Shown here piece after piece: positions 33,983 to 44,801 of a stretch of DNA of 64,000 bases. The position numbers and the translations under genes are program-made. Position 1 is the stretch's first letter, and every line of letters starts with the position of its first letter. This DNA comes from Novosphingobium sp. (GTDB taxonomy: Bacteria > Pseudomonadota > Alphaproteobacteria > Sphingomonadales > Sphingomonadaceae): the NCBI GenBank assembly GCA_016719755.1, contig JADJYM010000016.1, forward strand, positions 434,001 to 498,000, written 5' to 3'. The notes under the pieces are model-generated. The model was not told the origin of the DNA. It did not search any database and saw only the letters and a list, made by a program, of their open reading frames with translations.

Positions 33983-34320
33983 TCAGATGCATCACTCCTA
34001 ATCAGTCCCATCCGGGTCGAAACCCGGACCCAACGACCGACCCGGCAAAGCCGGTCCGATCGCCCAAAGTCTTAACTTCCACCCTGCGGGTCAATCCGGA
34101 GAACCGTTTGGCGCCCGACGCCAGACCAGCCAGATCGCGGGCCCTTATTGTTGTTTGGCCCGGTTTTCCGTGAGCTTTAGCGGCGAGGGCCGCAAGGCGC
34201 AACGCTTTATCCATTAACGGCGGATTCACTTGTGTTAAGCTGAAACGCCGCAAGAATGCCGCCAGAATCCGCGCCTTGGCGCTCCGGCGAATCGGGGTGC
34301 GGCGCTGCAGAGGAATCGCG
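33983..34320. promoter_or_regulatory. 338-bp divergent intergenic region, tonB / secreted hypothetical
   Basis: No gene is seen. It holds both divergent promoters. A 7-bp hairpin TCCGGGT-CGAA-ACCCGGA (34011-34028) would lie in the tonB leader. An AT-rich stretch near 34205-34240 (ATCCATTAACGG, TTGTGTTAAGC) is a likely site for the rightward promoter. I could not identify a Fur box. Confidence 0.4.
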
Positions 34321-35163
34321 ATGCCCAAGCAAGTTCCGTCCTATCTGACAGCCGTGGCCGGCGCGGCGATGCTGGCGCTTGCAGTGCCCGCCCTGGCCGA
34401 TTCGCGCGTACCGCCGGTTCCGCCGACCTATGCCGATCTTGCCGATTTCACCGATGCGGCACAGCTGATCGTGCGGGCCAAGCCGCTGGTCGTGAAGGCG
34501 ATCCCGATGGCCCAGGCGCGGGGCGTGCGCCCCGGCTGGGCGCGCTACCTGGTCGATGCGAAGACCGAGGGCCTGATCTATGGGCGCGGAGCGCTTGGCA
34601 CCAAGCTGCGCTACCTGGTCGACTTGCCGCTGGATGCGAAGGGCAAACCGCCCAAGGTGCGCGGCACCAGCATGCTGCTGTTCGCGCGGCCCGTGGAGGG
34701 GCGCCCGGCGGAGCTTCAGCTGGTCGCTCCCGATGCCCAGGTGCCGTGGGACGAACCGCTCGATGCGCGCCTGCGGAGCCTGCTGGCCGAGTTCAACGCG
34801 CCCGGCGCGCCGCAGCGGATCACCGGCGTGCGCGAGGCGATTCACGTCCCCGGCGATCTTGCCGGACAGGGTGAAACCCAGCTGTTCCTCGGCACCGCCT
34901 CAGGCGAGCCTGCGGCGATCACCATCATTCGCGAACCGGCGCAGCCGCCGCGCTGGAGCGTGTCGTTCTCCGAAGTGGTCGAAGCCAGCGGCGAGCCGCC
35001 GCGCCGCGACACGCTGGGCTGGTACCGCCTCGCCTGCTTCCTGCCGCGCGTCCTGCCCGGTTCGGTCAACATCTCGACCTCGGCTCCTGACCGCGCCCGG
35101 GCCGCGCGCGATTACCGCATGGTTCTGGAAAGCCTTGGGCCCTGCACCCGCAACCGGGGCTGA
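34321..35163 (+). CDS. secreted hypothetical protein (280 aa)
   Basis: The protein has a signal peptide (residues 1-25, ending ALADSRV), after which the mature chain is soluble with VVKAIPMAQARGVRPGWARYLVD, MLLFARPVEGRP and a late GWYRLACFLPRVLPG segment. Two Cys near the C-terminus (RLACFLP, LGPCTRN) could form a disulfide. I do not recognise a functional family beyond recalling similar secreted proteins in sphingomonads. It starts at ATG 34321 and is followed by hom after 84 bp, so it may share its transcript. Confidence 0.7.
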   Translation: MPKQVPSYLTAVAGAAMLALAVPALADSRVPPVPPTYADLADFTDAAQLIVRAKPLVVKAIPMAQARGVRPGWARYLVDAKTEGLIYGRGALGTKLRYLVDLPLDAKGKPPKVRGTSMLLFARPVEGRPAELQLVAPDAQVPWDEPLDARLRSLLAEFNAPGAPQRITGVREAIHVPGDLAGQGETQLFLGTASGEPAAITIIREPAQPPRWSVSFSEVVEASGEPPRRDTLGWYRLACFLPRVLPGSVNISTSAPDRARAARDYRMVLESLGPCTRNRG

Positions 35164-35247
35164 CCGGGCGGCAGGCAGGGCTGGCGCGCAACGTACTTGC
35201 CGCTGTTCCTGAGTGTCCCTAAGGCGCGGCTGCGAAAGGGGACTACC

Positions 35248-36555
35248 ATGGTTGCACCGCTACGTATCGCGCTTGCCGGGCTTGGCACGGTGGGGGCGGG
35301 CGTCATCCGCCTGGTCGAGGCGAATGCCGATTTGATTGCGCGGCGCGCCGGGCGGCCGATCGTCGTGACTGTCGTGGGTGCGCGCGACCGCAACAAGGAT
35401 CGCGGCGTCGATCTTTCCCCCTATGCCTGGGAAGACGACATGGTCATCATGGGCGAGCGCGAGGATGTTGACGTTGTTGTCGAACTGGTCGGCGGGTCGG
35501 ACGGACCGGCGCTGTCCTGCGCGCGGACCACGATCGAGGCGGGCAAGGCGCTGGTCACCGCCAACAAGGCGATGATCGCCCACCACGGGCTGGAACTGGC
35601 CGCCAAGGCCGAGGCGGCGAAGGTCGCGCTCAAGTTCGAAGCGGCGGTCGCGGGCGGAATTCCGGTGATCAAGGCGCTGCGCGAGGGTGCGGCGGCCAAT
35701 GCGATCGAGCGGGTCTACGGGATCCTCAACGGCACCTGCAACTACATCCTCTCGACCATGGAAGACACCGGGCGCGGGTTTGGCGAAGTGCTGTCCGAAG
35801 CCCAGGCCAAGGGTTATGCCGAGGCCGATCCGGCCTTTGATGTCGAGGGCACCGATGCGGCGCACAAGCTGTCGATTCTGGCGGCTATCGCCTTCGGGTC
35901 GAAGCTCGATTTCGCTGCGGTGGAGACCAGCGGCATCACTCGCCTGACCGCTGCCGACATCGCCCAGGCCGATGCGCTGGGCTATGTCATCCGCCTGATC
36001 GGCATGGCCGACACCGAGGCTCACAACGGCTCACAACGGCTCTTCCAGCGGGTTCAGCCGCACCTGGTGCCCTTCGATCACCCGCTGGCCCATGTCGACG
36101 GCGCGACCAATGCGGTGGTCGCCGAAGGCAACTTCTCGGGCCGGTTGCTGTTCCAGGGAGCCGGCGCCGGCGAAGGCCCTACCGCGAGCGCGGTGGTGGC
36201 CGACCTGATCGACATCGCGCGCGGCGAGGTCGGGACTCCGTTTTCCGTGCCCGTGGCCGAACTGGAAGCGATGGCGCCCGCCGGGGCCGGACAGCGGCAG
36301 GGCCGCGCCTACATCCGCTTCATGGTTGCCGACCGCCCGGGCGCGCTCGCTGAAATCACGGCGGCGATGCGCGATGCCGGGGTTTCGATCGAAAGCCTGA
36401 TCCAGAAGGGCCGCGCGGCCGATTCGGGCGCGGTGATGGTGGCAATGGTGACCCACGAGGGACCGGAAAGCGCGGTAAGCGAGGCGGTGCGCCTGCTAAA
36501 GGGTTCGGACAGCCTGCTCGAAGCGCCGCTGGTGCTGCAGATCCTGGGGGATTGA
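35248..36555 (+). CDS. hom: homoserine dehydrogenase
   Basis: A 435-residue enzyme that reduces aspartate semialdehyde to homoserine, on the route to threonine and methionine. A Rossmann start (IALAGLGTVGAGVIRLVE) is followed by the catalytic region VTANKAMIAHHG, GGIPVIKALREG and GILNGTCNYILSTM, and a C-terminal ACT domain (MVADRPGALAEITAAMRDAG). ATG 35248 has an AAAGGGGAC site. A three-hairpin repeat lies after the stop and separates it from a converging gene. Confidence 0.96.
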   Translation: MVAPLRIALAGLGTVGAGVIRLVEANADLIARRAGRPIVVTVVGARDRNKDRGVDLSPYAWEDDMVIMGEREDVDVVVELVGGSDGPALSCARTTIEAGKALVTANKAMIAHHGLELAAKAEAAKVALKFEAAVAGGIPVIKALREGAAANAIERVYGILNGTCNYILSTMEDTGRGFGEVLSEAQAKGYAEADPAFDVEGTDAAHKLSILAAIAFGSKLDFAAVETSGITRLTAADIAQADALGYVIRLIGMADTEAHNGSQRLFQRVQPHLVPFDHPLAHVDGATNAVVAEGNFSGRLLFQGAGAGEGPTASAVVADLIDIARGEVGTPFSVPVAELEAMAPAGAGQRQGRAYIRFMVADRPGALAEITAAMRDAGVSIESLIQKGRAADSGAVMVAMVTHEGPESAVSEAVRLLKGSDSLLEAPLVLQILGD

Positions 36556-36576
36556 GGGGGTTGGTGTCTTTTGTTG

Positions 36577-36720
36577 GGTGCGCCCTTCGCATCCGCGAAG
36601 GGCTTTGCAACACCGGCCCGCTCCCCCGGCCCGACCACCCATTTATGGTACCCTGTGGGTGGTCGGGCCGGGGGAGCGGGCCCCGGTGTTGCAGGGAAGT
36701 CCGGACGGACTTCCCGCACC
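36577..36720 (+). repeat. three-hairpin palindromic element, copy 1
   Basis: A ~144-bp REP/MITE-like unit bounded by GGTGC and GCACC. It contains a 9-bp hairpin (36582-36590 with 36595-36603), a long central palindrome (36606-36693, arms 26 bp plus more across a 2-base bulge, 16-base AT-rich loop with GGTACC), and a 10-bp hairpin (36694-36703 with 36706-36715). Copy 2 is at 42084-42226 in the opposite orientation. Both lie between convergent genes. Confidence 0.9.
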
Positions 36721-36748
36721 GCCGTGAGGCGGATAATAACCCCAATCC

Positions 36749-37204
36749 CTACCGATCCGCCATTTCTCCTCGCGCCACCTTGTCGGCATCCGATCCGGCT
36801 GGCGCCTCGGGAATCGCTTTCAGATCAATGTAATAGACCGGCGGCGGAACCCAGCCGCCGGTCATGCAGCCCGGCTGGCCCTTGCACGATCCGCGATCGA
36901 GCTGCGGCGCGCGGGGCAGGCCGTCGCGCAGCGCCTCGCGCGAGAGGGGGTCGATCTCGCGACTGGAGCGCACCCGCCACTGGGCGCTGTCCTCGCGCGC
37001 GCAGACCACGATGTCATTGTCACCGCCTTCGGTCCCGCCCGGGCAGGCGGGCTGTTCGGGTTCGGCGCGATAGGAATCGCCCGCCGAAAGCAGACGCTCG
37101 GCCATCCGCGCGTCGATTTCCTCGGCAGTCTGGGCCTGTGCCGGTCCGGCCAGCGGCGCGCACGCCGCCAGGGCAAGGCTCAGGCGCATCAGGGACTTTC
37201 GCAA
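36749..37204 (-). CDS. secreted hypothetical protein (151 aa)
   Basis: The start is taken as TTG 37204 because GGGAGGA stands six bases before it; ATG 37189 is five codons in. A signal peptide (SLMRLSLALAACAPLAGPAQAQ) is followed by a mature chain with Cys pairs (QPACPGG, IVVCARE, GSCKGQPGCMTGG) and a PPPVYYIDLKAIP segment. The DNDIVVCAR block recalls small exported proteins of sphingomonads of unknown function. Convergent with hom; its end lies 28 bp from the palindromic element. Confidence 0.7.
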   Translation of the reverse strand: MRKSLMRLSLALAACAPLAGPAQAQTAEEIDARMAERLLSAGDSYRAEPEQPACPGGTEGGDNDIVVCAREDSAQWRVRSSREIDPLSREALRDGLPRAPQLDRGSCKGQPGCMTGGWVPPPVYYIDLKAIPEAPAGSDADKVARGEMADR

Positions 37205-37278
37205 ACCGTTCCTCCCGTTTCGGCTCGGACGAGCCAACTGGCCGCCTGCCGCTTGAACCGCGAGTGAACGTACGCGAA

Positions 37279-37755
37279 TCAGAATTCGTCGCGCTCGCCG
37301 GTCAGGTCCAGTTCCTTGTTGTCGGCCACTTCGGCGGCCACGTCCATCGCCGCCTCAAGCTGCTTGGCGCTGACCGTATCGGGCAGCTTGATCACGAAAT
37401 AGAGATAGTCACCGCCGATTTCCCACGATCCCAGCTTGGCCCGCCGGCTGGCGCGCAGCAGGTCCAGCGCCTTGGCGCCGTCCAGCGCATCGGCCTTGGC
37501 GGCGGGCGCGAACACCTCGCGCACCGGCACCCCGCCCACCGTCTCGGTCCGGCCGGAAACGAAGACCAGCTGGGTGCGGCCTTCCTTGCGGTAATTGTAG
37601 GTGACCTTGAAATCGCCGTCCTTGTCGATCGCATACTTGATCGACTGCGCCTCCAGCCGGCGCTTGACCGAGGGATCGCCCGCGGGTTCGGCCTGGGCCG
37701 GAACGGCAAGCAGCAGCACGGCGAGCGTGGCGGCGGCGGGCAGGCGGCGGATCAT
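37279..37755 (-). CDS. secreted hypothetical protein (158 aa)
   Basis: A signal peptide (MIRRLPAAATLAVLLLAVPAQA) precedes a mature chain with IKYAIDKDGDFKVTYNY, TQLVFVSGRTETVGGVPVRE and YLYFVIKLPDTVSAKQLEAAM. The layout recalls YbjN-like or type III chaperone-like sensory folds, which I cannot confirm. GAAAGGAAA lies before ATG 37755. It lies upstream of the preceding hypothetical gene on the same strand (74 bp gap) and is divergent from glpX. Confidence 0.7.
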   Translation of the reverse strand: MIRRLPAAATLAVLLLAVPAQAEPAGDPSVKRRLEAQSIKYAIDKDGDFKVTYNYRKEGRTQLVFVSGRTETVGGVPVREVFAPAAKADALDGAKALDLLRASRRAKLGSWEIGGDYLYFVIKLPDTVSAKQLEAAMDVAAEVADNKELDLTGERDEF

Positions 37756-37920
37756 CGGATTTCCTTTCGGCGGCAAAGTTCGCCGCGGGCTTAGCGCCGC
37801 GCGGGGGCAGCTGCTTGGACATAAGCGCCACCTTTTCGACACCATCTCGACAAGGCGCCGCCGCCGCTCTAAGCGCGCCGCACGCACATACGTATTCAGC
37901 CAAGGGGCCTTCCAACCGCC

Positions 37921-38904
37921 ATGACCCAGTCCACTCCGCCCAGCACGGTACTCGATCGCGTTCTCGTCCTCGAAATGGTGCGCGTCACCGAAGCTGCCGC
38001 GATCGGTGCTTCCAAGCTGATCGGGCGCGGCGACGAAAAGGCGGCGGACCACGCCGCGGTCGAGGCGATGCGCGCCGCGCTCAACGAGCTGGCGATGGAC
38101 GGCACCGTGGTGATCGGCGAGGGCGAGCGTGACGAGGCGCCGATGCTGTTCATCGGCGAAAAGGTCGGCTCCGCGCAGGGCACCGGCCCGAAGATCGACA
38201 TCGCGCTCGATCCGCTGGAAGGCACCACGATCACCGCCAAGGCCGGGCCGAACGCACTGGCCGTGCTGGCCGTGGCCGAGGAAGGCAACCTGCTCAACGC
38301 GCCCGATGTCTACATGGACAAGCTGGCGGTCGGTCCGGGCTATCCCGACGGGATCATCAGCCTGGCCAAATCGCCGACCGAAAACGTCAAGGCCGTGGCC
38401 GAGGCCAAGGGCGTGGCGCCGGACGAGATCATCGTCTGCGTGCTTGATCGTCCGCGCCATGCCGAACTGATCGCGGAACTGCGCGGCCTTGGCTGCGGCG
38501 TGGTGCTGATCGGCGATGGCGATGTGGCGGGCGTGATTGCCGTGACCAACCCGGAAACCACCATCGATCTCTACATGGGTTCGGGCGGGGCGCCGGAAGG
38601 CGTGCTGGCCGCCGCCGCGCTGCGCTGCGTCGGCGGGCAGTTCAATGGCCGCCTGCTGTTCCGCAACGACGATGAACGCGGCCGCGCCCGCAAGTGGGGG
38701 ATCGAGGATCTGAACAAGATCTACACCCGCGACGAACTCGCCAAGGGCGACTGCATCTTCGCCGCCACCGGCGTGACCGACGGTTCGCTGCTGAAAGGCG
38801 TGAAGCGGATGAAGGACGGCCTGATCACCACCCAGTCGGTGGTGATGCGCGCCAGCTCCGGCACGGTCCGCTGGGTCTCGGGCGAACACCGCAACAAGAG
38901 TTGA
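37921..38904 (+). CDS. glpX: fructose-1,6-bisphosphatase class II
   Basis: A 327-residue Mg/Mn enzyme that removes the C1 phosphate of fructose-1,6-bisphosphate in gluconeogenesis. Class II motifs: VVIGEGERDEAPML, IALDPLEGTTITA, and YMGSGGAPEGVLAAAAL. The length fits. It is followed by a 203-bp gap containing an imperfect palindrome and then prs. Confidence 0.95.
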   Translation: MTQSTPPSTVLDRVLVLEMVRVTEAAAIGASKLIGRGDEKAADHAAVEAMRAALNELAMDGTVVIGEGERDEAPMLFIGEKVGSAQGTGPKIDIALDPLEGTTITAKAGPNALAVLAVAEEGNLLNAPDVYMDKLAVGPGYPDGIISLAKSPTENVKAVAEAKGVAPDEIIVCVLDRPRHAELIAELRGLGCGVVLIGDGDVAGVIAVTNPETTIDLYMGSGGAPEGVLAAAALRCVGGQFNGRLLFRNDDERGRARKWGIEDLNKIYTRDELAKGDCIFAATGVTDGSLLKGVKRMKDGLITTQSVVMRASSGTVRWVSGEHRNKS

Positions 38905-38919
38905 TTGCCCTGACGCACC

Positions 38920-38982
38920 GGTCCCGGATCAGGTCCGGGGCGATGCGGCGGCCTTATGTCGCCCCTGGCTCGACCCGGGACC
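38920..38982. repeat. imperfect palindrome between glpX and prs
   Basis: A 63-bp dyad: GGTCCCGG...GGGGCGA (38920-38943) pairs with TCGCCCC...CCGGGACC (38959-38982) with several mismatches. It is a REP-like unit of a different family from the copies at 36.6 and 42.1 kb, and may end glpX transcription. Confidence 0.6.
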
Positions 38983-39107
38983 GCTGGCCGCAAAGGCGCT
39001 GGTTTCCCCCGTCCACCCCCGCTCCATCCGGGCGAGGGCCTTGCATTCGCGTCGCGGCTGGCTAGAGCCGGGCGCGGGCTGCATCGTGCGCAGGGAAGGG
39101 CGACTCA

Positions 39108-40043
39108 ATGAAGATCATGACCGGCAATTCGAACCTGCCGCTGGCTCGGGCCATAGCGGGATACCTCGAAATGCCGCTGACCGATGCCTCGGTCCGGCGC
39201 TTCGCCGACGAGGAGGTCTTCGTCGAGATTCACGAGAACGTGCGCGGCGAGGACGTGTTCGTCGTCCAGTCGACCAGCTTCCCGGCCAACGACAACCTGA
39301 TGGAACTGCTGATCTGCATCGATGCGCTGCGCCGCGCCTCGGCCAAGCGGATCACCGCCGTCGTCCCCTATTTCGGCTATGCCCGGCAGGACCGGAAACC
39401 CGGGCCGCGCACCCCGATCTCGGCCAAGCTGGTGGCGAACCTGATCACCACGGCGGGTGCCGACCGTGTGCTGGCGGTCGATCTGCACGCCGGGCAGATC
39501 CAGGGCTTCTTCGATATTCCGACCGACAATCTCTATGCCGCCCCGGTGATGGCGGCGGACGTTCTGGCGCGCTCTGGCGGGCAGGATCTGATGGTCGTCT
39601 CGCCCGACGTGGGCGGCGTGGTGCGCGCCCGCGCGCTGGCCAAGCGGCTGGATAACGCCCCCCTCGCCATCGTCGACAAGCGCCGCGACAAGCCCGGCCA
39701 GTCCGAAGTGATGAACATCATCGGAGACGTGAAGGGGCGCAGCTGCATCCTGATCGACGATATCATCGATTCGGGCGGCACCCTGTGCAACGCCGCCCAG
39801 GCGCTGATGGATGCGGGCGCCGCCAGCGTGACCGCCTACCTCACCCACGGCGTGCTTTCGGGCGGCGCGGTGGCGCGGGTCGAAGGCTCGGCGCTGAAGG
39901 AACTGGTCATCACCGACACGATCCAGGCGACCGAGGCCGCCCAGGCCTCGTCCAAGATCCGCGTCCTCTCGATCGCCCCGCTGATCGGCGAGGCGATCCG
40001 CCGCATCGCTGACGAAAGCTCGGTGTCGAGCCTGTTCGACTGA
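39108..40043 (+). CDS. prs: ribose-phosphate pyrophosphokinase
   Basis: A 311-residue PRPP synthase. Motifs: [11 protein letters not shown] (ATP binding), [15 protein letters not shown], and the PRPP loop [21 protein letters not shown]. It supplies PRPP for nucleotide, histidine and tryptophan synthesis. ATG 39108. Its stop lies seven bases from an unusual long inverted repeat. Confidence 0.96.
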
Positions 40044-40049
40044 GCCGCG

Positions 40050-40120
40050 TTTATAGAAATCTTTGGGAAGTTTACCCCAGTTTACAATCAGGGGGTAAAC
40101 TGACATAAGGTTCCTATAAA
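40050..40120. repeat. 71-bp inverted repeat reaching the ATG of the AAA ATPase
   Basis: Two 29-base arms (40050-40078 and 40092-40120) match at 23 positions when reverse complemented, with a 13-base loop. The inner core AGTTTACCCC/GGGGTAAACT is perfect, and a third AGTTTAC lies in the loop (40079-40085). The outer edges TTTATAG/CTATAAA are also perfect. The right arm ends on the A of the start codon. TTTACA at 40081 with ACATAA at 40103 is a possible promoter inside it. Confidence 0.75.
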
Positions 40121-41289
40121 TGGACCCAAGGCGAAACCCTTTTGCGCCCGGCGCCGGAACGCCGCCGCCTGAACTGGCGGGCCGCGATGCCTTGCGGGAA
40201 CGTGTGGCGGTTGCGCTTGATCGCATCCGGGCGGGGCGGGCCGCGCAAAGCGTGATCCTGTATGGCCTGCGCGGTGTCGGCAAGACCGTCCTGCTCACGG
40301 CCATGCGCCGGGATGCCGAACAGGCCGGGCTGACCGTCATTTCGATCGAGGCACCGGAAGGGCGCTCGCTTCCCGCCGTGCTGGCACCCGCCCTGCGGTC
40401 CGCGCTCTTGCGGCTGGACCGGCTGAAAGGCGCGGGCGACAAGGTGCGGCGGGCGCTTTCGGCCCTGGCGGGCTTTGTAAAGCTCAAGGCGTCCTATGGC
40501 GATCTGGCGATCGCGGTCGAGCATGAGGCCGAGCCCGGACTTGCCGACAGCGGCGATCTGGAAGCCGACCTGACCGACCTGGTGCGCGCATTGGGAGAAG
40601 CCGCCGCCGAGCGGGGGACCGCTGCGGTCCTGTTCATCGACGAGCTGCAATATGTGCCCGAAGAGCAGTTGGCCGCACTGATTGTGGCGCTGCATTCGGC
40701 CAGCCAGAACCAGTTGCCGGTCACTCTCGTCGGAGCGGGGCTGCCGCAACTGCTGGGCCAGATGGGCCGGGCCAAGTCCTATGCCGAACGCCTGTTCGCC
40801 TTCGAATCGATCGGGCCGCTCGATTTTGCGGCCGCCGAAGCAGCGCTGCGCAATCCGATCGAGGGCGAGGGCGAGCGCATCGATCAGGAAGCCATCGCCG
40901 CGATCTTCGCGGCAACCGAAGGCTACGCCTATTTCCTGCAGGAATGGGGCAAGCAGAGCTGGGATGCCGCCGAAGAATCGCCGATCACGGCAGAGGACGT
41001 GGCGCTTGCGCAGGCCAGCGCGATCGCGCAACTTGACCAGAGCTTTTTCCGGGTCCGGCTTGACCGGTTGTCGCCGGCTGAAAAGCGCTATGTTCGCGCC
41101 ATGGCCAGCCTTGGCCCTGGTCCGCAAAGGTCGGGGGAAATCGCCCAGGCGATGGACGTCAAGGTGACGACCGTCGCTCCCATTCGCAGCAGCTTGATCG
41201 GAAAAGGTATGGTTTACAGTCCGGGACACGGCGATACGGCCTTCACCGTGCCGATGTTCGATGCCTACATTCGCAGGACGATGAACTGA
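40120..41289 (+). CDS. AAA ATPase of the ORC/CDC6-like ATP-binding class
   Basis: A 389-residue cytosolic ATPase: Walker A ILYGLRGVGKTVLL (residues 47-60), Walker B VLFIDELQYV, a sensor region VTLVGAGLPQLLG, a lid with FLQEWGKQSWDAA, and a C-terminal winged helix (SGEIAQAMDVKVTTVAPIRSSLIGKGMVY). This domain plan suits DNA-binding ATPases of the ORC/CDC6 or AAA_16 type found singly or with defence and mobile genes. The task of this one is unknown. It begins at ATG 40120 at the end of the inverted repeat and overlaps the HisN-like gene by TGATG. Confidence 0.8.
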   Translation: MDPRRNPFAPGAGTPPPELAGRDALRERVAVALDRIRAGRAAQSVILYGLRGVGKTVLLTAMRRDAEQAGLTVISIEAPEGRSLPAVLAPALRSALLRLDRLKGAGDKVRRALSALAGFVKLKASYGDLAIAVEHEAEPGLADSGDLEADLTDLVRALGEAAAERGTAAVLFIDELQYVPEEQLAALIVALHSASQNQLPVTLVGAGLPQLLGQMGRAKSYAERLFAFESIGPLDFAAAEAALRNPIEGEGERIDQEAIAAIFAATEGYAYFLQEWGKQSWDAAEESPITAEDVALAQASAIAQLDQSFFRVRLDRLSPAEKRYVRAMASLGPGPQRSGEIAQAMDVKVTTVAPIRSSLIGKGMVYSPGHGDTAFTVPMFDAYIRRTMN

Positions 41290-42077
41290 TGGCTGCTGGC
41301 TTTGACGCGGAGATCGCGCTCGCCCACCGGCTCGCCGACGCCGCGCGCGCGGCGATCCTGCCGCATTTCCGCTCGGGCATGACGTCCGAGCGCAAGGCCG
41401 ATGCAACCCCGGTGACACTGGCCGATCGGGCCGCCGAAGCGGCGATGCGGGCGATCATCAAGGCGGAATTTCCCGGCGATGCCCTGCATGGCGAGGAATA
41501 CGGCGCGGAAACCGGCAGTTCGGGGCGGACCTGGGTGCTCGATCCGATCGATGGCACGGCGGGGTTCCTCGCCGGGCGGCCCCTGTTCGGCACGCTGATC
41601 GCGCTGGTGGTGGAAGGTTGGCCGGTGCTGGGGGTGATCGACCAGGCCGTGCTGAAGGAGCGCTGGGTCGGGGTCACGGGCCGTCCGACCACGCTTAATG
41701 GTCAGCCGGTGCGCACACGCGCCTGTCCCAGTCTGGCCGAGGCAACGCTGGCGACCACCGGGCCGCATTATTTCGACGACCATGAAGGCGAACACTTCAT
41801 GGCGCTGGCCGCACGCACCGATCACCGCCGGATGGTGATGGGCGGGGACTGCTACAACTATGCCATGCTGGCGACCGGGCAGCTCGACATCGTCTGCGAG
41901 GCGGGGTTGAAGCTCCACGACTACGCGGCGCTGGTGCCGGTGGTCGAAGGCGCGGGCGGCACGATGTGCGACTGGAACGGCGATCCGCTCCACGCCGCAA
42001 GCCAGGGCGACGTGCTGGCGCTGGGCGATCCGGCGCGGCTGGAAGACGTGGTTGCGGCGCTCGCCTGCGGGCACTGA
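41289..42077 (+). CDS. hisN: histidinol-phosphatase, inositol monophosphatase family (HisN type)
   Basis: A 262-residue Mg-dependent phosphatase with the IMPase signatures HGEEYG (Glu69-70), WVLDPIDGTAGFL (Asp85, Asp88) and GLKLHDYAALVPVVEGAGG. Alphaproteobacterial members of this group commonly serve as HisN in histidine synthesis; inositol phosphatase activity cannot be ruled out. Its start overlaps the AAA ATPase stop (TGATG), an unusual partnership. A palindromic element follows. Confidence 0.8.
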   Translation: MAAGFDAEIALAHRLADAARAAILPHFRSGMTSERKADATPVTLADRAAEAAMRAIIKAEFPGDALHGEEYGAETGSSGRTWVLDPIDGTAGFLAGRPLFGTLIALVVEGWPVLGVIDQAVLKERWVGVTGRPTTLNGQPVRTRACPSLAEATLATTGPHYFDDHEGEHFMALAARTDHRRMVMGGDCYNYAMLATGQLDIVCEAGLKLHDYAALVPVVEGAGGTMCDWNGDPLHAASQGDVLALGDPARLEDVVAALACGH

Positions 42078-42083
42078 TGTCTG

Positions 42084-42226
42084 GGTGCGGACAGGCCATC
42101 CGGCCAGTCCTTGCAACACCAGCCCGCTCCCCCGGCCCGACCACCCGTTTATGGTACCCTGTGGGTGGTCGGGCCGGGGGAGCGGGCTGGTGTTGCAAAG
42201 CCCTTCGCAGATGCGAAGGGTGCACC
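42084..42226 (-). repeat. three-hairpin palindromic element, copy 2 (inverted)
   Basis: A 143-bp copy of the element at 36577-36720 with termini GGTGC/GCACC. Its central palindrome has perfect 36-bp arms (42111-42146 with 42163-42198) around a 16-base loop with GGTACC. The flanking hairpins are at 42089-42110 and 42200-42220. Relative to copy 1 the flanks are inverted, but the loop keeps the same plus-strand direction. Confidence 0.9.
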
Positions 42227-42237
42227 TGACATAGGAC

Positions 42238-43827
42238 TCAGGCGGACAAACTCTCCGCAACAAACGCCGCCGCGCGTTCGCCGATCATGATCGAGGGGGC
42301 ATTGGTGTTGCCCGAGACCAGCCGCGGCATGATCGAGGCGTCGGCGACCCACAGCCCGTCCACCCCGCGCGCCTTCAGCCTGGGGTCGACCACGCTGCCC
42401 TCGTCCCCGCCCATCCGGCAGGTGCCGACCGGGTGATAGATCGTGTCCGCCGTGGCGCGGATCTGCGCGTCGAGCGCGGCATCGTCGTTATAATCGATCG
42501 GGTTGCGGTCGCGCCCCTGATAGTTTGACAGCGGCGGCGCCTCGCAGATCCGCTGCATCAGCCGCGCCGCCTTGCGCAGCAGCACCAGATCGCGCTCGTC
42601 GGCCAGGAAGTTGGGATTGATCGCCGGGTGCTGGGCCGGATCGGTGCTTTTCAGTTTCACCCAGCCGCGGCTTTCCGGGCGCAGGACGCAGGCGTGGACC
42701 GAAAAGCCGTGCTGGCGCACCTTGTCGCGCCCGTGGTTCTGCACGATCCCGGGCAGGAAGTGGTACTGGATGTCGGGCGCCGGGGATGCCGGGTCGAGCG
42801 TCCAGAATCCGCCCGCTTCGGCAAACGGCGTGGTCATCATCCCGGTGCGGCGGCGCACGTATTCGATCAGCGACAGGCCCATCCGCCACGCCCCGGCGAG
42901 CGATCCGCCCAGCAGGTCCGGCGAATCCGCCTCGTAGGACAGGATGAAGTCGCAGTGGTCCTGGAGGTCGGCGCCCACCGCCTCGCAGTCGCGCTGCACC
43001 TCGATCCCATGCTCGGCAAGATGCGCGGACGGGCCGATGCCGGACAGCATCAGCACCTGCGGGCTGCCGAAGGCCCCCGCGCTCAGCACCACGCCGCCGC
43101 TGGCGCGCAGCACTTCGCGCTGGCCGCCGCGCTGGATCGCAACGCCGACCGCGCGGCCATTCTCGATCACGATCTTTTCGACCAGCACTCCGGTGCGCAC
43201 ATCAAGATTGGGGCGCGAGCGGGCCGGTTCGACATAGGCGCGCGCGGCGGACCAGCGCTCGCCCCCGCGCTGGGTCACCTGATAGAGCCCGAAGCCGTCC
43301 TGCTTCGCGCCGTTGAAATCGGGATTGCGTGGCAACTGCAGCTGCGCCGCGCTCTCCACGAAAGCGCGGCTAGCGGGCGAGGGCCAGTGCTGGTCACTGA
43401 CCGAAAGCGGGCCGCCGGTGCCGTGGAAATCGTTGCCGCCGCGCTCGTTGTCCTCGCACCGCTTGAACCACGGCAGGACATCGTCATAGGCCCAGCCGGT
43501 GCAGCCCAGCGCCGCCCAGTTGTCATAGTCCCAGGCGTTGCCGCGCACATAGAGCATGGCGTTGATCGCGCTTGAACCGCCCAGACCCTTGCCCCGCGGC
43601 TGATACCCGCGCCGCCCGTTCAGGCCGTCCATCGGTTCGGTCTCGAACGCCCAGTTGGCGTTCTTGGGCAGGGCGACAAGCAGGCCCGGGGTCTTGATCC
43701 GGAAATTGTCGTTGGTGCCGCCCGCTTCCAGCAGGCAGACCCGGCGCGCGGGGTTCTCGCTCAGCCTGCCGGCCACGGTGCTGCCCGCGCTGCCGCCGCC
43801 GATCACGATTACGTCGAACTGCTCCAT
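42238..43827 (-). CDS. GMC family FAD-dependent oxidoreductase (choline/alcohol dehydrogenase-like)
   Basis: A 529-residue flavoenzyme of the glucose-methanol-choline family: an FAD loop [19 protein letters not shown] at the N-terminus, the GMC signature around [19 protein letters not shown], and a C-terminal [10 protein letters not shown] with the catalytic His. It would oxidise an alcohol such as an aliphatic or polyethylene-glycol-like substrate; BetA, AlkJ and PEG dehydrogenases look alike, so no symbol is given. A GGAGAGG site precedes ATG 43827. It converges on hisN across the palindromic element. Confidence 0.9.
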
Positions 43828-43904
43828 TGCGCACCTCTCCTGACATACCTGTCAGCAAGAGGCCTAAGCGAGCGTCTGAGCCGATGCAATGCTATTCGGT
43901 CGAG

Positions 43905-44801
43905 CTATTCGGCGGGCACGGCTTCCTGCCGCTCCTGCCAGCGCGCGCGGATCGTGTCCGAGGTTTCGCGGCTGCCGTCGTGGCTCCACCCGGGCGGGGC
44001 GAACATATAGTGCAGCTTGGCCCGCCACGGCGCGCGCCAGACATCGCGGGCGATCCCGATCCATTCGTGGAACACCGCCCACAGCAGGTTGAAGCTGCCA
44101 AGCTGACGGACAATGCCATAGCGGATCCGCACCCCGTCCAGCTCCGCCTGGAAAGTGCCCAGCAGGCGGTCCCATATGATGAACACCCCGGCATAGTTGC
44201 GATCGAGGTAGAGCGGGTTGGTGGCGTGGTGGACGCGGTGGTGCGACGGGGTGTTCATCACCGCCTCGAACCAGCGCGGCATCCGCCCGATCGCCTCGGT
44301 ATGAATCCAGAACTGGTAGATCAGGTTGATCGCCCCGCAGGTCGCGATCATCGCCGGGTGAAAGCCGATGAAGGCCGGCCAGATGCGAAAGGCGAAGCCG
44401 GCGGCGAAGAACCCGGTCCAGGTCTGGCGCAGCGCGGTCGACAGGTTGTAGTGCTGGCTGGAATGGTGGTTGACGTGGCTTGCCCAGAACCAGCGGCTGC
44501 GGTGGCCGACACGGTGCGCCAGGTAATAGTTGAAATCATCCAGCACGAAGCAGGCGATCCAGGCCCACCACTGCCAGCCGATGGTGATGACGCGGTGCTG
44601 ATAAAGCCATAGCGCCATGGCCAGCACCAGGCCGCCGGTCAGCGCCCCGGCCACTGTGCTGCCCACGCCAAGGCCCAGCGAGGTCAGCGTGTCCTTGGGT
44701 TCGTACTTTTCCGGCGCGCGGCGCGCGGCCCACAGCATCTCGATCACGATCAGCAGCAGGAAACCGGGGACGGCATAATCGACGGGGCTGAGTTCGGGCA
44801 T
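43905..44801 (-). CDS. sterol desaturase/fatty acid hydroxylase family protein
   Basis: A 298-residue membrane di-iron enzyme. Its histidine clusters are intact: HRVGH, HVNHHSSQHYN and HHRVHHATNP, on about four hydrophobic helices. Such enzymes hydroxylate or desaturate fatty acids, carotenoids or sterol-like lipids; sphingomonads use relatives for 2-hydroxy fatty acids and carotenoids. The C-terminus follows DNA at the end of a three-gene minus-strand run with two small genes upstream. It starts at ATG 44801, two bases after the preceding gene stop. Confidence 0.88.
   Translation of the reverse strand: MPELSPVDYAVPGFLLLIVIEMLWAARRAPEKYEPKDTLTSLGLGVGSTVAGALTGGLVLAMALWLYQHRVITIGWQWWAWIACFVLDDFNYYLAHRVGHRSRWFWASHVNHHSSQHYNLSTALRQTWTGFFAAGFAFRIWPAFIGFHPAMIATCGAINLIYQFWIHTEAIGRMPRWFEAVMNTPSHHRVHHATNPLYLDRNYAGVFIIWDRLLGTFQAELDGVRIRYGIVRQLGSFNLLWAVFHEWIGIARDVWRAPWRAKLHYMFAPPGWSHDGSRETSDTIRARWQERQEAVPAE

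Follow-up and report, generated by a model that had tools for sequence, protein, structure and literature searches.

Two palindromic elements of 143 to 144 bp in a Novosphingobium genome belong to a dispersed, noncoding palindromic DNA repeat family of Sphingomonadaceae. Both lie in a 64,000-nucleotide stretch of DNA that was analyzed as a whole (here, the window). The reading that we favor, and that we consider reasonably well founded, is an orphan REP/MITE-like palindromic element that is tolerated at gene ends and that combines sequence-free stems with a fixed tag and loop. Within the titles and abstract beginnings of the open-license PMC papers that our searches listed, we found no description of this repeat family.

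Anatomy and spread of the element

In each window copy, GGTGC pairs with GCACC as the closing stem, and inside it a core palindrome with arms of up to 36 bp stands between two 9-bp hairpins (Table 1). The A hairpin of copy 1 reads GCCCTTCGC-ATCC-GCGAAGGGC, and the core of this copy is exactly complementary over 27 nt inside a longer arm, while the core arms of copy 2 (42111-42146/42163-42198) are 36 nt long and 100% complementary. The two copies lie in opposite orientations except for the central loop, which points the same way in both. RNA folding of both strands of both copies gave z values of -13.0 to -15.2, and folding of the + strand of both copies as single-stranded DNA gave -16.3 and -15.6; none of 200 shuffles was as stable in either analysis. 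The minimum-energy structure, as RNA or as single-stranded DNA, was a closed junction with the three-hairpin plan. The sequence and these folds bear out the two copies and the three-hairpin plan described in the original prediction, and the arm sequences that it quoted were correct when both copies were read again. An Rfam scan of the window at gathering score matched no known structured RNA family at the element; a known family was rejected because the sole match in the window was a tRNA.

Table 1. Coordinates of the two element copies, their parts, and the neighboring genes in the window
Feature	Position	Strand	Basis or score
Homoserine dehydrogenase gene hom (PF00742), stop 21 nt before copy 1	35197..36555	+	
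Copy 1 left flank TGTCTTTTGTTG; GAGTCTTTGTTG in other copies	36565..36576	+	Sequence, alignment
Copy 1, complete, with the A hairpin at the left and the B hairpin at the right	36577..36720	+	138.1 bits to model R1
Copy 1 closing stem, 5' half GGTGC; partner 36716-36720 GCACC	36577..36581	+	Fold
Copy 1 A hairpin, 9-bp stem, loop ATCC	36582..36603	+	Sequence, fold
Copy 1 core palindrome; exact arms 36615-36641/36656-36682	36606..36693	.	Arm comparison, fold
Copy 1 central loop; both orientations occur among copies	36642..36655	.	Arm comparison, 16-copy alignment
Copy 1 B hairpin, 9-bp stem GGGAAGTCC/GGACTTCCC	36694..36715	+	Sequence, fold
Copy 1 right flank TCCGCCTCACGGCGG; resembles most copies of the same genome in alignment A1	36719..36733	-	Alignment
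Hypothetical gene (162-aa ORF), convergent on copy 1, without Pfam match	36749..37237	-	
hisN-like inositol phosphatase family gene (PF00459), stop 6 nt before copy 2	41289..42077	+	
Copy 2, complete and inverted, with the B hairpin at the left of the + strand	42084..42226	-	150.6 bits on - strand
Copy 2 B hairpin, one mismatch	42089..42110	+	Sequence, fold
Copy 2 core palindrome, 36-nt arms, 100% complementary	42111..42198	.	Arm comparison
Copy 2 central loop	42147..42162	.	Arm comparison
Copy 2 A hairpin	42200..42221	+	Sequence, fold
GACTC (GANTC site); no other GANTC lies within 40 nt of the two window copies	42235..42239	.	
GMC oxidoreductase gene, whose 3' end is 11 nt away from copy 2	42238..43827	-	

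A BLAST search with copy 1 gave 45 matches in the 3.7-Mb genome to which the window belongs, many of which were the two strands of one place. This genome holds 16 near-complete copies, and not only the two in the window; about a dozen further places have less (fragments, half-elements, one diverged copy, or a lone core). A covariance model was built from the 16 near-complete copies and used for a genome-wide search with a cutoff of E<=1e-4. Model matches were present in 47 of 59 sampled Novosphingobium genomes and in 40 of 147 genomes of the order, spanning 17 of 56 genera (the window's genome is included in each count), and five genomes (G005, G009, G010, G013, and G069) exceeded the window's genome in the number of matches. 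Of 72,556 plasmid records, 2 matched a portion of the core (about 81%), and spread by plasmids was rejected on this basis. The tag-hairpin pattern had 40 hits in the window's genome; those with paired stems, placed by eye, fall in elements or fragments, and core-less A/B dimers were rejected for this reason as a separate abundant family.

In complete units, two short hairpins flank a conserved core palindrome, and GGTGC/GCACC closes the whole; these terminal inverted repeats extend to GAGTCTTTGTTG/CAACAAAGACTC in some copies. Across 108 copies, 174 of 216 outer arms formed a stem of at least 8 bp with at most one mismatch, versus 63 of 4,320 shuffled ones. Among hairpins with the exact GGTGC tag, 82 of 98 had a perfect stem of at least 8 bp. 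The 85 perfect-stem hairpins with this tag carried 48 different stem strings (a count that includes strings differing by one end base alone), and their loops were ATCC, CTCC, or GTCC in 75 cases. Judged by eye, the core palindrome keeps its sequence across the genus, and the core arms are conserved across genera beyond the needs of pairing. Other lineages (e.g., loci L231, L233, L193, L228, and L194, from G069, G070, G005, and others) have the same core and three-hairpin plan; by eye, their outer hairpins, tags, loops, and closing stems are without evident sequence kinship. Core-only copies occur at L029, L074, and L086, and at position 7424 of L089 both outer hairpins are kept and the core is almost gone. 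A core copy at L085 (10959-11145) has an extra hairpin, GGAAATGTCC/GGACATTTCC, inside one arm. A GTA(C/T)NCT-like string, in either orientation, was common by eye in core loops (e.g., positions 36642-36655 of the window).

Placement at gene ends and history of single sites

The 23 places in the window's genome (a count that leaves aside half-elements beside full ones and two diverged places) comprised 11 convergent, 10 tandem, and 2 divergent junctions, with none inside a gene. Gene contexts were assigned by a basic program that calls genes from codon usage learned on the window; at least one of its calls (37263-37794) is doubtful. Of 108 copies, 37 were convergent, 49 tandem, and 17 divergent, 3 were at a contig edge, and 2 were called inside ORFs; the elements taken from the genus (74) and from the order (18) are best-listed matches, a nonrandom sample in which several come from one genome. 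Element-free junctions in the same loci (n = 281) were 38 convergent, 181 tandem, and 62 divergent. Convergent junctions thus accounted for 37 of 103 copies (the set without the 3 edge and 2 inside contexts) versus 38 of 281 element-free junctions (Fisher p 4e-6; this value is too small because related copies were treated as independent, while the direction is clear). An extragenic repeat family enriched at convergent junctions had been predicted, and these counts agree with it; with 2 of 108 copies called inside ORFs and 0 of 23 in the window's genome, copies are not spread evenly inside genes.

The element also lies close to stop codons. The stop side was nearer in 39 of 49 tandem places (median, 16 versus 80 nt), and an abutting stop codon was found within 40 nt of 71 of 103 copies. 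TGA-targeted insertion was rejected, since TGA was present at 37 of 67 adjacent stops versus 230 of 404 overall.

Individual sites in related species were filled, partly deleted, or empty. A search with the homoserine dehydrogenase of the window ranked mostly Novosphingobium loci at the top; the closest hom gene, with 97% identity, was that of an uncultured Novosphingobium metagenome-assembled genome. The hom site is full in the window, has lost most of the core by deletion in the nearest relative, and holds a fragment in L089; L084 contains a weak remnant (E 0.08), L075 and L085 contain core-like scraps (by eye), and no element was detected in the remaining loci of the 41 that were read. Besides the window, 4 of the 24 relatives' loci with hisN have an element at that site, although in L089 most of the core is missing there; in one sister pair, L102 is filled and L088 is empty. 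At a third site (C4:369427), the window's genome alone had a full copy. By the model, none of 19 relatives' loci (those read out of 68 genomes with a flank match, the window's genome included) was full; a single-hairpin remnant was seen by eye in 3 of the 19 and was doubtful in 2. Filled and empty sites at the three loci, compared by eye, showed no unambiguous target-site duplication. Taken together, the sites look like insertions that deletions erode and that some lineages have gained or restored, with gain and loss not separable in every case. Loss by deletion could account for much of the patchiness without recent movement, and no movement of the element was observed.

Covariation, module exchange, and transcript-level roles

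A functional RNA is usually demonstrated by changes on both sides of its stems. In the 16 copies of the window's genome, 97.3% of 937 pair cells were standard pairs; by type, 905 cells were Watson-Crick, 7 were G-U, 5 were A-C, and 20 were other. Changed cells had altered on both sides in 80 cases versus one side in 6, and 19 pairs had both-side change. The covariation score of 0.243 was reached by none of 500 shuffles and dropped to <=0.063 when partners were slid by 1 to 3 columns, and we therefore regard the pairing as truly kept. The number of further pair types (32, versus 29.5 in shuffles) was not beyond shuffles, 75 of 500 of which reached 32.

The core-arm mismatches of 49 tandem copies were put on the transcript strand by means of the abutting gene, which gave 8 G-U, 24 A-C, and 19 other cells beside 1,734 Watson-Crick cells. 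G-U is thus not favored on the transcript strand, A-C mismatches being three times as numerous, which is opposite to RNA selection. According to PMC8794818, compensatory changes in RNA are widely assumed to arise by way of G-U.

Whole modules also differ between copies. By eye, the central loop had one orientation relative to A and B in 7 and the other in 9 of the 16 copies of the window's genome, and each of the main A stem classes was seen with each of the main B stem classes (two of each, hence four combinations). The nearest relative shares its B stem at the hom site with the window, the A hairpin and the outer core arms on both sides differ, and the A stem of the relative is also present elsewhere in the window's genome. 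The stem-class combinations and this swap of the A stem indicate that whole hairpins were exchanged or re-copied; the A hairpin, core allele, loop orientation, and B hairpin are modules that have been reassorted among copies. Template switching between inverted repeats is reported in PMC8604942 to homogenize arms and invert spacers. Arm homogenization, multibase double changes, and spacer inversion are features that our element shares with template-switched inverted repeats, although those described in PMC8604942 and PMC8794818 concern yeast genes and RNA genes, whereas the element is a dispersed, multicopy bacterial one.

The covariation is real, yet it is no proof of RNA selection, and it suits arm copying and exchange between copies. 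The original prediction was right that pairing is kept through sequence change, and its step from there to a selected structure is not supported, given the joint arm changes, the few wobbles, and the inverted spacers. The loops of the outer hairpins were not freely inverted (NTCC is kept in 75 of 85), a result not expected from template switching by itself. Because the tag and the loop orientation are constant, something must recognize or constrain the tag and loop. Strand-symmetric selection on a DNA cruciform, a possible alternative, would likewise suppress wobble pairs, and template switching is therefore not proved.

These observations bear on whether the element is a bidirectional transcription terminator or a stabilizer of mRNA 3' ends, with selection on RNA structure, which we regard as unlikely. 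The very stable folds on both strands, the excess at convergent junctions with its nearness to stop codons, and the different element versions that occupy the hisN site in several species are all consistent with such a role. The core-arm mismatches, with no preference for G-U over A-C on the transcript strand, argue against it, as do the many orthologous junctions in which no element was detected. Moreover, no T-tract followed the element in 123 readings, and a terminator scan of positions 34000-44000 found none at either copy; a canonical Rho-independent terminator, with a T-tract directly after a GC-rich hairpin, was rejected on these grounds. The element or its core also lies between rpsL and rpsG in three loci. 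The two genes, which encode ribosomal proteins S12 and S7, form one operon, and full termination between them would therefore be costly. The 0 of 123 readings and the three rpsL-rpsG loci speak against the intrinsic bidirectional terminator that had been proposed. The element may still have a Rho-assisted, processing, or stabilizing role, or a side effect at the transcript level. As for the three loci themselves, the element is located between the S12 and S7 genes at L244 (1501-1646), and the A hairpin and core are located there at L190 (1501-1655) and L243 (1501-1650), where the model match enters the start of rpsG; two of these genomes belong to the genus and one to another genus in the family.

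Relation to known repeats and possible mode of spread

A DNA site with a function for the host, e.g., a cruciform to which a nucleoid protein or one linked to methylation binds, in the manner of the Caulobacter CIR repeats (reported by Chen and Shapiro in 2003), appears distinctly improbable to us. The fixed tag and loop and the pairing without G-U bias on the transcript strand would suit such a site. GANTC was present within 40 nt of 10 of the 16 copies of the window's genome on the upstream side and of 8 of 16 on the downstream side, versus 3 of 61 other gene ends, and pooled GANTC distances clustered at 6 to 8 nt on the 5' side and at 5 to 8 or 15 to 20 nt on the 3' side. However, GANTC occurred on either side of only 26 of 72 relatives' copies (the count skips 2 such copies), the two window copies have one GANTC between them, and presence of the element at a given site is not conserved. 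The GANTC linkage is clear in the window's genome and weaker in relatives, and the host-site reading was kept as a rival for that reason. Inside the element, GANTC was found in 0 of the 16 copies of the window's genome and in 8 of 72 relatives' copies. PMC2229807 describes the CIR repeats of Caulobacter and Brucella as intergenic structured repeats of about 110 bp that are linked to GANTC in alpha-Proteobacteria, much like the element; CIR repeats have two arms, a linker, and GANTC at the loop, whereas the element is a three-hairpin closed junction with GANTC in some flanks.

Movement as a REP, REPIN, or BIME by a RAYT (Y1) transposase since lost from the window's genome is very improbable. 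Like REPs and REPINs, the element is formed of extragenic palindromes in inverted pairs; its fragments and reassortment recall BIMEs, and its two inverted tagged hairpins and clover-like fold recall REPINs as presented in PMC3116915. A PF01797 match was present in 17 of 59 genus genomes (the window's genome included in the sample), and genomes with such a match had a median of 8 element matches versus 3 in those without (p 0.15, not significant). Against this, the search for a RAYT gene gave 0 PF01797 matches in the window's genome, while the same search was positive in 5 of 14 control genomes, and PF01797 was lacking from 9 of 13 genomes with at least 20 element matches. The GTAG tag is absent, and the ends of the element are GGTGC/GCACC.

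At eight RAYT-like loci of the genus, a tagged-hairpin scan found no perfect GGTGC hairpin with an NTCC loop. Other repeats occurred at four of them (L155, L156, L161, and L163), L162 and L164 were without a clear flanking repeat, and L165 and L166 were covered by the tagged-hairpin scan alone. In G034, an element lies about 1.4 kb from the RAYT-like gene and does not flank it; unrelated repeats adjoin the gene. RAYT was rejected as the mobilizer on the basis of the genome search and these loci, and the proposed REP/BIME identity with a RAYT failed with it. Regarding the repeats themselves, copies of GGGGGTTTACGGACGTGTCACCGTAAT, a different repeat, are present on both sides of the RAYT-like gene of G034 (L161, 2570-3840), inverted repeats of 23 to 26 nt with GGGACAGTCCC are present near the RAYT-like genes of L155 and L156, and GGGGACACGG hairpins are present near that of L163.

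REPs are placed at gene 3' ends, as the element is. REP, REPIN, and BIME repeats with a RAYT further resemble it in being extragenic and palindromic, with two inverted tagged hairpins, a clover-like fold, and mosaic fragments. Unlike them, the element has no RAYT in the genome, a GGTGC rather than a GTAG tag, an additional conserved core palindrome, and a modest copy number. The CGTC-tagged REPs of alpha-Proteobacteria also have 8- to 9-bp stems and 4- or 5-nt loops, are mostly head-to-head dimers, and, like the element, have no dedicated transposase known (PMC3733652). In contrast to these repeats as described there, the element lacks the unpaired CGTC (TGTC/CCTC) tag and the AT-rich first stem pairs and is a composite with a core. 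The same paper mentions CGTC-2 repeats of N. aromaticivorans. MITE-like repeats such as Correia/NEMIS, RUP, and ERIC are comparable in having a length of 100 to 200 bp, terminal inverted repeats, and stable folds (PMC2229807); unlike in these repeats, a target-site duplication is not established for the element.

Under the favored reading of an orphan element tolerated at gene ends, template switching during replication would rewrite one arm of a hairpin after the other and turn the loop around as well, and whole hairpins would be exchanged between dispersed copies. In addition, recognition or selection would preserve pairing as such, along with the GGTGC tag and the TCC loop. The element may spread as a nonautonomous passenger by a hypothetical enzyme other than a RAYT/IS200-type Y1 transposase, and it would persist behind stop codons, where insertion probably harms least. 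If the element affects the 3' ends of transcripts, this would be incidental to its GC-rich hairpins, as has been proposed for REPs, and not classical termination. Points against this reading are that a search for a mobilizing enzyme covering PF01797 identified none, that there is no clear target-site duplication, and that 17 of 103 copies are divergent, with 2 more called inside ORFs. Further points against it are the number of further pair types, which lies within the range of shuffles, the core-arm conservation across genera, the A-C excess over G-U in tandem copies, for which the reading gives no account, and the higher, though not significantly higher, median of element matches in genomes with PF01797.

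A more specific form of the orphan-element reading, which we put forward only tentatively, is a mobile DNA element recognized by its shape. Its fixed tag and TCC loop, sequence-free stems, and giant core hairpin would be the features that a hypothetical non-Y1 enzyme recognizes; the hairpins would be exchanged or re-copied as units, and the architecture would outlast the sequence of the outer hairpins across lineages.

The element adds a repeat family that occurs across much of the genus and has no known mobilizer where a RAYT was expected. It also provides a large natural set in which pairing is kept with few wobbles and no G-U bias, loops are inverted, and hairpins are swapped, and thus a test case for distinguishing DNA arm copying from RNA selection.
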